Positions 29,655 through 45,335 of a DNA stretch of 50,908 bases are shown here, piece by piece (position 1 is the first letter of the stretch; each line of letters starts with the position of its first letter). A model generated the notes under the pieces. The model worked only from the letters and a program-made list of their open reading frames with translations. It searched no databases and was not told the origin of the DNA. A program made the translations under genes and the position numbers. The DNA is taken from assembly GCF_003946625.1 (NCBI RefSeq), contig NZ_RHOR01000016.1, positions 1 through 50,908 on the forward strand, given 5' to 3'. Source of the DNA: Companilactobacillus kedongensis (GTDB taxonomy: Bacteria > Bacillota > Bacilli > Lactobacillales > Lactobacillaceae).

Positions 29655-29728
29655 GGTCCCTTGGCCCAGTTGGATAGAGCAACTGCCTCCTAAGCAGTAG
29701 GTCCCCGGTTCGATTCCGGGAGGGATCA
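29655..29728 (+). tRNA. tRNA-Arg (anticodon CCT)
   Basis: A complete 74-base cloverleaf. Acceptor GGTCCCT pairs with AGGGATC plus discriminator A; the anticodon stem ACTGC/GCAGT encloses CTCCTAA with anticodon CCT, reading the rare AGG codon; the T arm is CCCGG-TTCGATT-CCGGG. The CCA end is not encoded. This tRNA gene is a common integration site in Firmicutes. A terminator and a toxin-antitoxin module lie directly downstream. Confidence 0.97.
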
Positions 29729-42474: not shown

Positions 42475-43830
42475 TTGAAAGTTGTAGTAGTTGGTTGTAC
42501 GCACGCCGGAACAGCCGCTGTGGAACAAATTCTCAAAGATCATCCAGAAACTGACGTTACTGTATATGAACGTGAGGATAATATTGCATTTTTATCTTGC
42601 GGAATTGCTTTATACCTAGGTAGGATCGTTAATCGTTTGGAAGATATGTTCTACGCTGACCCTGATACATTGAGACAAGATGGTGCCGACGTTAAGATGA
42701 AACATGAAGTTTTAAAAATTGACTCTAAAAAGAAAACGCTCGTTGTTAAAGATCTTGAAACTGGAAAAGAATATGAAGATAGTTATGACAAATTGATCAT
42801 GACTACTGGATCAAAAACCTATACACCAGTTTTGAAGAATTTTGATAACCCCCGCATTTTGCTATGTAAAAATTACGAACAAGCTCAACAAATTTATGAA
42901 TCAGCTAAAAATTATCAAAGTATTGCCATCATTGGTGGTGGCTACGTTGGTGTTGAATTAGCTGAAAGTTATGCCAACACAATTCACAATGTTACCTTGA
43001 TCCACGCTGGTGAGCAGGTATTAAATCACTATATTGATAAACCGATGTCTGATAAAATTGTTGGTCTTTTGAGAGATCACTATGTTGATGTTTTCTTAAA
43101 TGAACGTGTTTCTGGCTTTGAAGACGGTGATGAAATCACCATCAAAACTAACAAAGGTGAGCATAAAGCTGATTTAATTATTGTATGTACTGGTTTTGTA
43201 GCTAATACCGATCTTTTAAAGGGTCAGGTTAAAACTGGTGAGCATGAAGAAATCGTCGTTAATGAATATGTTCAATCATCAGATCCTGATATTTATGCAG
43301 CAGGAGATTCATGTTCGGTTAACTTTAATCCTACACAAAAACCTGTCTATATTCCTTTAGCCACTAATGCCGTTCGTCAAGGATTCTTGGCTGGAAAGAA
43401 TATTTTTGGAGATATTCAAAAATATATGGGAACACAGGCCTCTACAGGTTTAGAATTATTCGGTCATACTTTGGCATCAACAGGTGCAACATTGAAGAAT
43501 GCACTAGATGATGGTATTAATGCAGATTCAGTTATTTATAACGATTATTATCGTCCAACATTTATGCCAAGCAATGAAATGTTAATGATTGATTTAGTTT
43601 ACGATAAAGATACAAGAAAAATTTTGGGTGCTCAATTATTCAGTAAGCACGAAGTTGCACAGTCAGCTAATGCCTTGTCTATCAGTATTCAAAATGGTAA
43701 TACTATTGACGATCTAGCTTTTGTTGATATGTTATTCCAACCTAATTATGATAATCCATTCAACTATTTGAACTTAGTAGCTCAAATGGCGATTGCTAAA
43801 GAAGAACAAGAAGCTAAAGCTAAGAAGTAG
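42475..43830 (+). CDS. nox: NADH oxidase (H2O-forming), paralog 2
   Basis: A 451-residue close paralog of the oxidase at 38574; by eye about 70 percent of residues agree. C42 is kept (FLSCGIALYLG), as are VVGCTHAG, IIGGGYVGVELAESYAN and AAGDSC. It starts with TTG behind GGGAGG. The two copies lie about 2.5 kb apart with EAL, GNAT and OCD genes between. The C-terminus is lysine-rich (KEEQEAKAKK). Confidence 0.93.
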   Translation: MKVVVVGCTHAGTAAVEQILKDHPETDVTVYEREDNIAFLSCGIALYLGRIVNRLEDMFYADPDTLRQDGADVKMKHEVLKIDSKKKTLVVKDLETGKEYEDSYDKLIMTTGSKTYTPVLKNFDNPRILLCKNYEQAQQIYESAKNYQSIAIIGGGYVGVELAESYANTIHNVTLIHAGEQVLNHYIDKPMSDKIVGLLRDHYVDVFLNERVSGFEDGDEITIKTNKGEHKADLIIVCTGFVANTDLLKGQVKTGEHEEIVVNEYVQSSDPDIYAAGDSCSVNFNPTQKPVYIPLATNAVRQGFLAGKNIFGDIQKYMGTQASTGLELFGHTLASTGATLKNALDDGINADSVIYNDYYRPTFMPSNEMLMIDLVYDKDTRKILGAQLFSKHEVAQSANALSISIQNGNTIDDLAFVDMLFQPNYDNPFNYLNLVAQMAIAKEEQEAKAKK

Positions 43831-43852
43831 TCCGTTAGGGCTATTTTTTTTT
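43828..43852 (+). terminator. nox paralog 2 terminator
   Basis: TAGTCC pairs with GGGCTA around GTTA, beginning in the stop codon, and is followed by nine T. Confidence 0.75.
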
Positions 43853-43870
43853 GTGCTTTTTTGCCGCCAA

Positions 43871-44013
43871 CGGTGTCGAGTAATTCCATCTGTTGTGTTG
43901 ACCGGTCCCAGCCAAGGTCTGGGGCCTCGATTTCAAGCTTTACTATCGCAAATCTTGGAATCGTCAGTGGAGTAAAACTCCACATTCACAACTGATTCCA
44001 TTACTCGACACCG
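43871..44013 (+). repeat. Multi-stem structured repeat, copy 1
   Basis: A 143-base element closed by a perfect 14-bp inverted repeat (CGGTGTCGAGTAAT at 43871-43884, ATTACTCGACACCG at 44000-44013). It is extended by GTTGTG/CACAAC. Inside are three hairpins: GGTCCCAG/CTGGGGCC (43904-43926), CGATTTCAAG/CTTGGAATCG (43928-43963), GTGGAGT/ACTCCAC (43967-43983). It shares a core with copy 2 in reverse. There is no T-run, so it is not a terminator. The family is not recognised. Confidence 0.85.
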
Positions 44014-44145
44014 CTAGCTATATTAACCACTCTTTGTATTATGGACGTTAATCCGATTTTTCATTTAAAATTGCATTTTTAACTTTGAATTAATAATAAT
44101 TGGATATGATCTGGCTATTCTGAATTTACTAAGTATCTAGCCGGA

Positions 44146-44298
44146 GTTGGTGAGAAATCTACCAGTGGTAAAAGTGGTGTTAGGGCTTTAGCCCTTACAC
44201 CACAGACGTATTTTGAGATTTGCGATAGCAAAGCTCAAAATCGAGGTCCAAGACTGCGGCTTGGACCGGTCTTACCACAGGTGGAATTTCTCACCAAC
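44146..44298 (-). repeat. Multi-stem structured repeat, copy 2 (opposite orientation)
   Basis: A 153-base element closed by a perfect 13-bp inverted repeat (GTTGGTGAGAAAT at 44146-44158, ATTTCTCACCAAC at 44286-44298), extended by GTGGTAA/TTACCAC. Inside are GTGGTGTTAGGGC/GCCCTTACACCAC (44174-44203), ATTTTGAG/CTCAAAAT (44210-44241) and GGTCCAAG/CTTGGACC (44245-44267). Read on the minus strand it aligns with copy 1; arm differences are mostly paired. The 132 bases between the copies (44014-44145) show nothing else. Confidence 0.85.
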
Positions 44299-44320
44299 GC
44301 AGGCGGCATAATAAAACAAC

Positions 44321-44356
44321 AAAAAAAACGAAGACTCAGATGAGTTCTTCGTTTTT
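44321..44356. terminator. fba terminator (bidirectional)
   Basis: AAAAACGAAGaCTCA pairs with TGAGtTCTTCGTTTTT (close to perfect), with T-runs on both strands. It serves the minus-strand fba. Confidence 0.85.
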
Positions 44357-44377: not shown

Positions 44378-45247
44378 TTATTTAATTGATGGTGTACCGA
44401 ACCATGCGATACGTTCCTTAGTTGTTTCTGTAATAGCCTTTGCACCAGGTGCTAGTAACTTACGTGGGTCATAACCTTTTTCATCGATGTCAAGATCTTT
44501 CTTAGCTTCGATGTATTCACGTGTTGCTTTGGCAAATGACAATTGTAATTCAGTATTAACGTTAACTTTTGAGATACCCATTGAAACAGCCTTGATGATT
44601 TGTTCCTTAGGAATACCTGAACCACCGTGAAGTACAAGTGGTGTATCAATAACGTCAGCTAATTCCTTAAGACGGTCAAAGCTTAAGCCTTTCCAGTTAG
44701 CAGGGTAAACACCATGAATGTTACCAATACCAACAGCAAGGTAGTCAACACCAGTTGCGTTAAGTGTCTTAGCTTCTTCAACATCAGCTAATTCACCTAA
44801 ACCAACGATACCATCTTCAGTACCACCGATTGAACCAACTTCAGCTTCAACAGAGATACCTTTAGCATGAGCTAATTTAACGATTTCCTTTGTTTTTGCA
44901 AGGTTTTCGTCGAAAGGTAAGTCATGGCCATCAAACATAACTGAGTTGTAACCAACTTCGATACATTCTTTAGCAGCTTCGTAGTTACCGTGATCCAAGT
45001 GCATAACAACAGGAACTGTGATACCCATTGATTTGATTGTGTCTTGTACTAGGTGTAGACATAATTCATAGCCACCCATGTACTTAGCAGCACCCATTGA
45101 TGTTTGAACCAAAACAGGTGTGTTTGTTTCTTGGGCTGCAGCTAAAATTGAGCGAGTCCATTCCAAGTCGTTGATGTTAAAAGCACCAACAGCATATTTT
45201 CCTGCACGAGCTTGTTTGAAAATTTCGTTTCCGTTTGTTAAAACCAT
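44378..45247 (-). CDS. fba: Class II fructose-bisphosphate aldolase
   Basis: A 289-residue zinc-dependent aldolase of glycolysis, cleaving fructose-1,6-bisphosphate. HLDHGNYEAAKECI holds a metal histidine and the catalytic Asp (about 81-84); SVMFDGHDLPFDEN, EAEVGSIGGTEDG and GGSGIP are typical. ATG at 45247 follows GGAGG; a longer frame to 45283 is unlikely. It is monocistronic. Its presence does not rule out heterofermentation, but it supports use of the Embden-Meyerhof route. Confidence 0.97.
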   Translation of the reverse strand: MVLTNGNEIFKQARAGKYAVGAFNINDLEWTRSILAAAQETNTPVLVQTSMGAAKYMGGYELCLHLVQDTIKSMGITVPVVMHLDHGNYEAAKECIEVGYNSVMFDGHDLPFDENLAKTKEIVKLAHAKGISVEAEVGSIGGTEDGIVGLGELADVEEAKTLNATGVDYLAVGIGNIHGVYPANWKGLSFDRLKELADVIDTPLVLHGGSGIPKEQIIKAVSMGISKVNVNTELQLSFAKATREYIEAKKDLDIDEKGYDPRKLLAPGAKAITETTKERIAWFGTPSIK

Positions 45248-45335
45248 CGATAATCCTCCAATAAATTCATCTTTAGAATACAATCATCATTTTAACGCAA
45301 AACACGAATAATTAGTATCTTTTTTACAAAACTAT

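Follow-up and report, generated by a model that had tools for sequence, protein, structure and literature searches.

An abundant, apparently mobile family of paired branched palindromes in Companilactobacillus kedongensis and related genomes

In the genome of Companilactobacillus kedongensis (assembly GCF_003946625.1), two multi-stem repeats face each other between two convergent genes, which raises the question of whether they belong to a structured RNA or to a DNA element. The locus is part of a window of 50,908 nucleotides (contig NZ_RHOR01000016.1, positions 1 to 50,908), which is the whole stretch of DNA that was analysed. It contains the following features:

42475..43830, plus strand: flanking gene, pyridine nucleotide-disulphide oxidoreductase (PF07992, E 2e-55)
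43822..43849, plus strand: terminator-like hairpin and T-run, left of the unit, that belong to the upstream gene (from the consensus scan)
43866..44018, plus strand: copy 1, branched palindrome of ~153 nt with GCC/GGC-type ends, a closing stem of ~14 bp, an inner stem and three hairpins
44019..44139, no strand: AT-rich spacer separating copies 1 and 2 (z +0.8 when folded as DNA)
44140..44304, minus strand: copy 2, branched palindrome of ~165 nt with the architecture of copy 1, convergent with copy 1
44318..44355, minus strand: terminator-like hairpin, recognised by eye, that belongs to the convergent gene downstream and is located to the right of the unit
44378..45283, minus strand: convergent flanking gene, class II fructose-bisphosphate aldolase (PF01116, E 1e-95)

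The initial annotation, made from the sequence alone, had placed the copies at 43871-44013 and 44146-44298; copies are found there, but their true extents are somewhat wider (43866-44018 and 44140-44304). As it had claimed, both copies have a common architecture: they can be aligned over their full length and share one branched fold with GCC/GGC ends, a closing stem of around 13 to 14 bp, an inner stem and three hairpins, the first two of which are surrounded by a short helix; copy 1 carries a short version of the third. The short GGAC/GTCC-type helix around the first two hairpins and the pairing of the GCC/GGC ends go beyond the stems described before. The elements have no genes of their own, which bears out the earlier statement that no transposase lies inside. 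Both flanking genes retain their own terminator-like hairpins, the right one of which (44318..44355) was not flagged in the consensus terminator scan; by eye, similar hairpins are located at the end of the aldolase gene in the relatives G003, G032 and G016, and the empty site of G032 contains a gene end resembling that of the window's upstream gene. No significant hairpin could be detected in the window's own spacer when it was folded as DNA, in agreement with the view that the pair is not a terminator, whereas 37 of 49 other spacers in the genome, folded as RNA, reach a z below -2, and the 14 strongest-folding spacers resemble terminator hairpins when read by eye.

Copies 1 and 2 fold far more stably than their dinucleotide shuffles (z -9.3 and -13.1, respectively; none of 200 shuffles equalled either), and the opposite strands of both are about equally stable. 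A two-sequence covariance model built from the window copies, the scan that had been proposed, yielded 150 matches in the genome (150 of 251 candidates were scored). In the alignment of these 150 copies (148 distinct), whose rows were placed by a model started from copies 1 and 2 and are biased towards that structure, 94.5% of the cells are paired compared with 74.0% after shuffling, and double changes occur in 56 of 63 pairs. The covariation score is 0.545, as opposed to 0.179 after shuffling and at most 0.088 when the partners were slid by 1 to 3 columns, and none of 500 shuffles matched the pairing values. Similar values were obtained for 107 matches in other genomes, 17 of which are overlapping opposite-strand matches, leaving 90: 92.8% of the cells are paired, 55 of 61 pairs contain double changes, and covariation reaches 0.516 versus 0.151 after shuffling. 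The compensatory arm changes pointed out between the two copies are paired far above chance in both sets, and further copies, whose absence was to count against the idea, are numerous.

The annotation took these changes as the mark of selection on structure. Compensatory change is real; however, selection is not its sole reading, and template switching is an alternative. According to the available text of two papers, template switching at inverted repeats yields multi-base compensatory changes (PMC8794818) and is able to invert spacers without a dedicated enzyme (PMC8604942). Double changes in the closing stem already prevail between copies with near-identical cores: in 8 pairs with cores at least 93% identical, a different Watson-Crick pair has arisen through change on both sides in 19% of the closing-stem cells, and around 5% have changed on one side. 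Data on recent copies of the related G026-type subfamily described below are few (n=30), with 3 compensated cells in 2 copies and 4 single changes in 4 copies, three of the latter at one position. The idea that the closing-stem arms are copied from the target site was rejected, since the longest matches of the arms to their own flanks (mean 7.57) are no better than those to other flanks (7.86). It is likely, if not proven, that the concerted change of the arms reflects DNA template switching between them, with or without selection for the fold.

A rescan of 94 fetched stretches added 13 copies, and one overlapping opposite-strand match was removed, giving at least 162 copies of the shared fold at 104 places in this genome, with further copies possible beyond the fetched stretches. 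The copies found make up 26.5 kb or 1.2% of the genome, and the share is higher in some relatives. The load of individual contigs is uneven, with 24 copies on C23 (177 kb), 22 on C35 (113 kb) and 3 on C32 (164 kb). When copies under 400 nt apart are regarded as neighbours, the 104 places comprise 56 convergent pairs, one '++-' arrangement, 47 single copies and no divergent pair, and the neighbouring copies of other genomes form 27 convergent pairs, one tandem pair and, again, no divergent pair. The recurring unit is a convergent pair, which was beyond the view of the annotation's author. Spacers are 37 to 230 nt long (median 121.5) with 24% G+C. The partners often differ in subtype, as assigned by rules made for this analysis: A-B combinations account for 28 of the 56 pairs, compared with around 15 expected from the subtype frequencies, and A is the left half in 11 and the right half in 17 of them. 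Heteromeric pairs in which one member is strong and the other divergent, and whose spacers vary, are also found in G228 and G321, which belong to other genera.

The position of the copies relative to genes bears on the question of RNA or DNA. Simple ORF calling assigned both neighbours at 96 places: the flanking genes are convergent at 44 of them, tandem at 50 and divergent at 2. Of 148 copies, 112 have the sense orientation and begin at a median of 16 nt past the stop codon; the remaining 36, which are antisense to their neighbour, have a median distance of 116 nt to the next gene. The sense placement, the very stable fold, the strong covariation and the enclosure of a hairpin by many of the pairs would suit an RNA element of the 3'-UTR, which would form part of the transcript of the upstream gene and, once folded, act as a terminator or shield the end of the mRNA. 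Selection on RNA of the mRNA strand should lead to a clear excess of G-U over A-C. Across all copies of the genome and 54 pairs, 230 G-T and 203 A-C combinations were counted, 38 and 49 of which are in the closing stem. The sense copies, with 178 G-T and 162 A-C in total, do have more G-T than A-C in the second (69 and 43) and third hairpins (43 and 13), together 112 versus 56, but not in the closing stem (22 versus 33) or in the inner helices and first hairpin (44 versus 73); the closing stem of antisense copies has 15 and 13. In the 90 copies of other genomes, A-C prevails overall (106 G-T, 224 A-C) and in the closing stem (6 and 29), and the third hairpin has 38 and 22. The RNA-type wobble signal is missing overall and in the closing stem, though present in two hairpins, and because G-T does not exceed A-C in the closing stem, DNA is favoured over RNA. 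Moreover, no match at the gathering score was obtained for the repeat in Rfam, and a permissive scan gave only sub-threshold matches. The one Rfam match in the window that reaches the gathering score is a tRNA (29655-29728, plus strand). Thus, the structured-RNA option of the annotation is not supported, and as 36 of the 148 copies are antisense and related species also differ in the presence of copies, a 3'-UTR RNA element appears distinctly improbable.

Evidence for mobility comes from a related subfamily in G026 and neighbouring genomes; in G026, 40 copies with 88-100% identity were found, query included. The G026-type units match model R2 over their full length (57.5 bits, E 5.5e-12), one half scoring 51-60 bits and the other 32-37; judged by these scores, they are divergent relatives rather than members of the window's subfamily. 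When 14 G026 loci were compared with G005 and G006, no half was detectable at 19 of 28 orthologous sites, and one or more halves were present at 9. Seven loci whose relative lacks a half were read, and in five (L306, L307, L314, L315 and L308, the last two clear at the left boundary only) the unit starts in the loop region of a terminator-like hairpin of the relative; at L309 the unit adjoins a hairpin, and L316 has no loop target. Terminal inverted repeats of up to 22 bp, with the end sequence GGTTCTTTCTTAAGTTAG, are present at both ends in 15 of 36 candidate units at a cut-off set in this analysis, and the terminal-repeat pattern has 37 matches in 5 genomes, compared with none for the reversed control. 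In 13 of these 15 units, the direct repeats on either side exceed the 95th percentile obtained with mispaired flanks; they are 6 to 9 bp long, most commonly 7. In 8 of the 15 units, the flanks are mutually best complements, where one would be expected. A duplicated loop between the hairpin arms was recognised by eye at L367, L361, L359 and L368, and a ~314-nt unit is nested in the hairpin loop of another copy at L364:1299-1622 of G026, flanked by the 7-bp target-site duplication GATTTAT. At L306 and L367, the terminal repeats surround the entire pair. The terminal repeat may resemble the ends of ISL3-family elements, which are said to produce 8-bp duplications. For the G026-type subfamily, sequence comparison demonstrates that units dispersed recently, bear terminal repeats, duplicate their target and insert into loops.

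For the window's own subfamily, orthologous sites were compared. The region orthologous to the window's locus measures 548 nt here, 101 in G003, 85 in G032 and 169 in G016. The site is empty in G003 and G032, where the surrounding sequence has diverged, and in G016 (L134:1356-1429) a collapsed palindrome remains, in which the outer arms are joined and everything between them is lost; by eye, its arms seem to have changed places compared with the window. A set of 30 relative loci was retrieved for 13 other pairs and allowed 26 comparisons (11 pairs). Model R2 detected a pair at two of the 30 loci, both in G016 and one with a partial member at C5, and a single copy at three; some other loci contain, by eye, remnants or another palindromic element. 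Different palindromic elements were also seen by eye at L172, L181, L189, L193, L196 and L199 of G003 and G032, which are orthologous to pairs of the window's genome; these have variable complementary outer arms, in most cases a core near CAGCTTTCGAGC / AAGCGGAAAAAGCT, and a central terminator-like hairpin. The comparison of orthologous sites supports the gain and loss of units between species. In the window's genome, none of the 56 units had recognisable terminal inverted repeats. Only 1 of the 56, and 1 of 27 units of other genomes, is flanked by exact near-symmetric direct repeats of at least 7 bp (mispaired rate 0.025); the search for target-site duplications, which the annotation had suggested, therefore gave chance level in the window's subfamily and duplications of ~7 bp in the related G026-type units. 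A split-terminator signature was rejected for the window's subfamily, as the outer flanks of the 56 units are not complementary (mean z -0.19).

Comparisons of copies within genomes bear on whether the pair or the single copy is the moving entity. The closest copies within the window's genome are 95% identical and have unrelated flanks. Where two units share one half at 90% identity or more, their other halves average only 71% identity in this genome (6 comparisons; overall 63%) and 73% in G011 (2 comparisons; overall 67%), and the spacers are mostly unrelated. Because the partners are much less alike and the spacers differ, the halves may spread or convert separately. This would fit the proposal that each ~165-nt copy is an independent mobile or gene-conversion unit and that pairs arise since both sides of a terminator are favoured targets, as would the 47 places with a single detected copy. 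However, pairs also occur at 26 tandem-gene places where one side only follows a gene end, the terminal repeats of the related L306 and L367 enclose the whole pair, and the heteromeric pair is retained in other genera; independence of the copies is considered unlikely.

Orientation was compared at four G026 loci. At three of them, a half is on the other side in at least one close relative, which corresponds to 4 of 10 comparisons; these may be independent opposite insertions. The opposite orientations, together with variable yet complementary arms and conserved hairpin cores, are also reminiscent of folded single-strand recombination sites of the attC type, in which case the orientation changes would be site-specific inversions. 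The partners are inverted and not direct repeats, however, their interiors are short, and inversion of a spacer by template switching needs no dedicated enzyme, as far as the available text of PMC8604942 goes. We give little credence to attC-like sites.

Inverted doublets that are extragenic, structured and present in high copy number are described for REPINs in the available text of PMC3116915, which suggests a REPIN moved by a REP-associated tyrosine (HUH, Y1) transposase as a further explanation. Y1_Tnp is indeed present in 18 of 36 genomes, including some copy-rich ones (G009, G011 and G021), but no match was found in the copy-rich G034, G023, G013, G024, G016 and G032 and only a fragment in the window's genome, whereas the gene is intact in G002 and G025, both of which have no copy at the cut-off. 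A Y1 (RAYT) transposase was rejected as the mobiliser, as its presence does not follow copy number across the 36 genomes. Moreover, the relatives carry terminal repeats and target duplications, which are not expected from HUH single-strand transposition, and this explanation is very improbable indeed. An autonomous version was searched for in two long-spaced convergent pairs, and none was found. The interior of C22 (L086:477-1670), with ~850 nt between the copies, contains three short ORFs (80, 83 and 101 aa) with no Pfam match and only insignificant NCBIfam matches, and C35 contains two ORFs of ~267 aa, which are presumed to be ordinary genes.

Beyond this genome, matches were found in 30 of 36 genomes of the genus (E 1e-3), in 76 of 301 genomes of the family, representing 12 of its 40 genera, and in 37 of 395 genomes of the order (E 1e-5), where they are weak outside the family; all three counts include the window's genome, and several genomes are counted by weak matches alone. 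The order-level matches outside the family reach ~39-68 bits; the few that were read have common hairpin motifs, and they are not claimed as members. Among these distant matches, five near-identical copies in G560, which belongs to another family (L224 and L251-L254), have near-identical flanks of ~90 nt, perhaps inside a larger repeat, and a T-run after the closing stem; L220 of G610 contains two tandem copies, whose hairpins have GAGC..TCTC-like motifs in a different order. The exact hairpin pattern was found in nine stretches of named records of Companilactobacillus tucceti, keshanensis and hulinensis. G011 carries 71 copies in ten 20-kb stretches, mostly chosen around matches; three stretches not chosen around matches contain 15 copies in 60 kb, which would correspond to ~700 per genome if that density held. 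No match was obtained in plasmids, phages and viral contigs.

Taken together, copies 1 and 2 are probably the structured halves of one non-autonomous mobile DNA unit of the MITE/REPIN kind; the annotation's option of a MITE or a DNA cruciform/REP-like element fits the many dispersed copies without genes, the inverted doublets and the empty sites. Such a unit would consist of a half A, a spacer and a half B directed at A, each half being a branched palindrome of ~165 nt that could form a hairpin or cruciform at the DNA level. An enzyme acting in trans would bring the units into the 3'-end regions of genes, with the window's subfamily presumably moving as its G026-type relatives do, and the fold may have a role in mobility. 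Insertion into terminator loops, which is seen in the relatives, would by extension also account for the window pair, and the terminator-like hairpin that often lies between the halves could replace the hairpin split by the insertion. The arms would change their sequence rapidly and stay complementary via DNA template switching, which could also account for the opposite unit orientations at orthologous sites. A more far-reaching proposal is put forward only tentatively: the family may home to the loops of terminator hairpins and split them, carrying a bidirectional terminator as a substitute between its two ends, which would be branched palindromes recognised as folded DNA, with the arms rewritten and the unit flipped by template switching, and hundreds of insertions (~700 extrapolated in one species) may be tolerated for this reason.

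The family offers many natural cases to tell selection on structure from template switching, because the closing-stem arms co-change while the cores stay near-fixed, and it serves as a warning that strong covariation by itself is no proof of a functional RNA. Targeting of terminator loops, if true, would explain how such a repeat load is tolerated and would bear on gene boundaries, genome assembly and strain typing in food bacteria.

No description of this repeat family was found in the literature covered, which lies mostly outside subscription journals. Among known systems, REPINs likewise consist of two inverted structured repeats and a spacer, are extragenic, occur in many copies and include singlets besides doublets, as far as the available text of PMC3116915 describes them; here, however, the halves are ~165 nt long with several hairpins, copy number does not follow the Y1 transposase, and the relatives bear terminal inverted repeats and ~7-bp duplications. 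Bacterial MITEs are similarly short and lack a transposase gene, and the G026-type units share terminal inverted repeats and target duplications with them, but the units described here are built of two large halves, each a branched palindrome, often with a terminator-like hairpin in the centre, and have hairpin loops as targets. IS1397, IS621 and ISKpn1 insert into REP sequences, which are also palindromic, hairpin-forming targets (PMC1525189, available text), whereas here the inserted DNA lacks a transposase gene, and terminator-like hairpins at the ends of genes were the targets in the cases read. Structured intergenic repeats of ~150-170 nt are known from Firmicutes: bcr1 of Bacillus and, in Enterococcus faecalis, Efa-1, which is 163 bp long, has 65 matches and forms two adjacent stem-loops. 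Both were compared by description only, and the available text of PMC2267715 makes no mention of convergent pairing for them; Lac-1 of L. johnsonii, from the same source, sits in coding sequence. The maintenance of hairpins by template switching shares multi-base compensatory change, arm homogenisation and spacer inversion with this family, but is known, from the available text of PMC8794818 and PMC8604942, as a mutation process and not as part of a mobile element. Integron attC arrays are made of direct repeats, whereas here one tandem neighbour stands against 56 convergent pairs in the window's genome and one against 27 in other genomes. Thus, the family appears to be an abundant, mobile and non-autonomous group of palindromes with DNA-level structure, and apparently represents a new variant within the MITE/REPIN kind.
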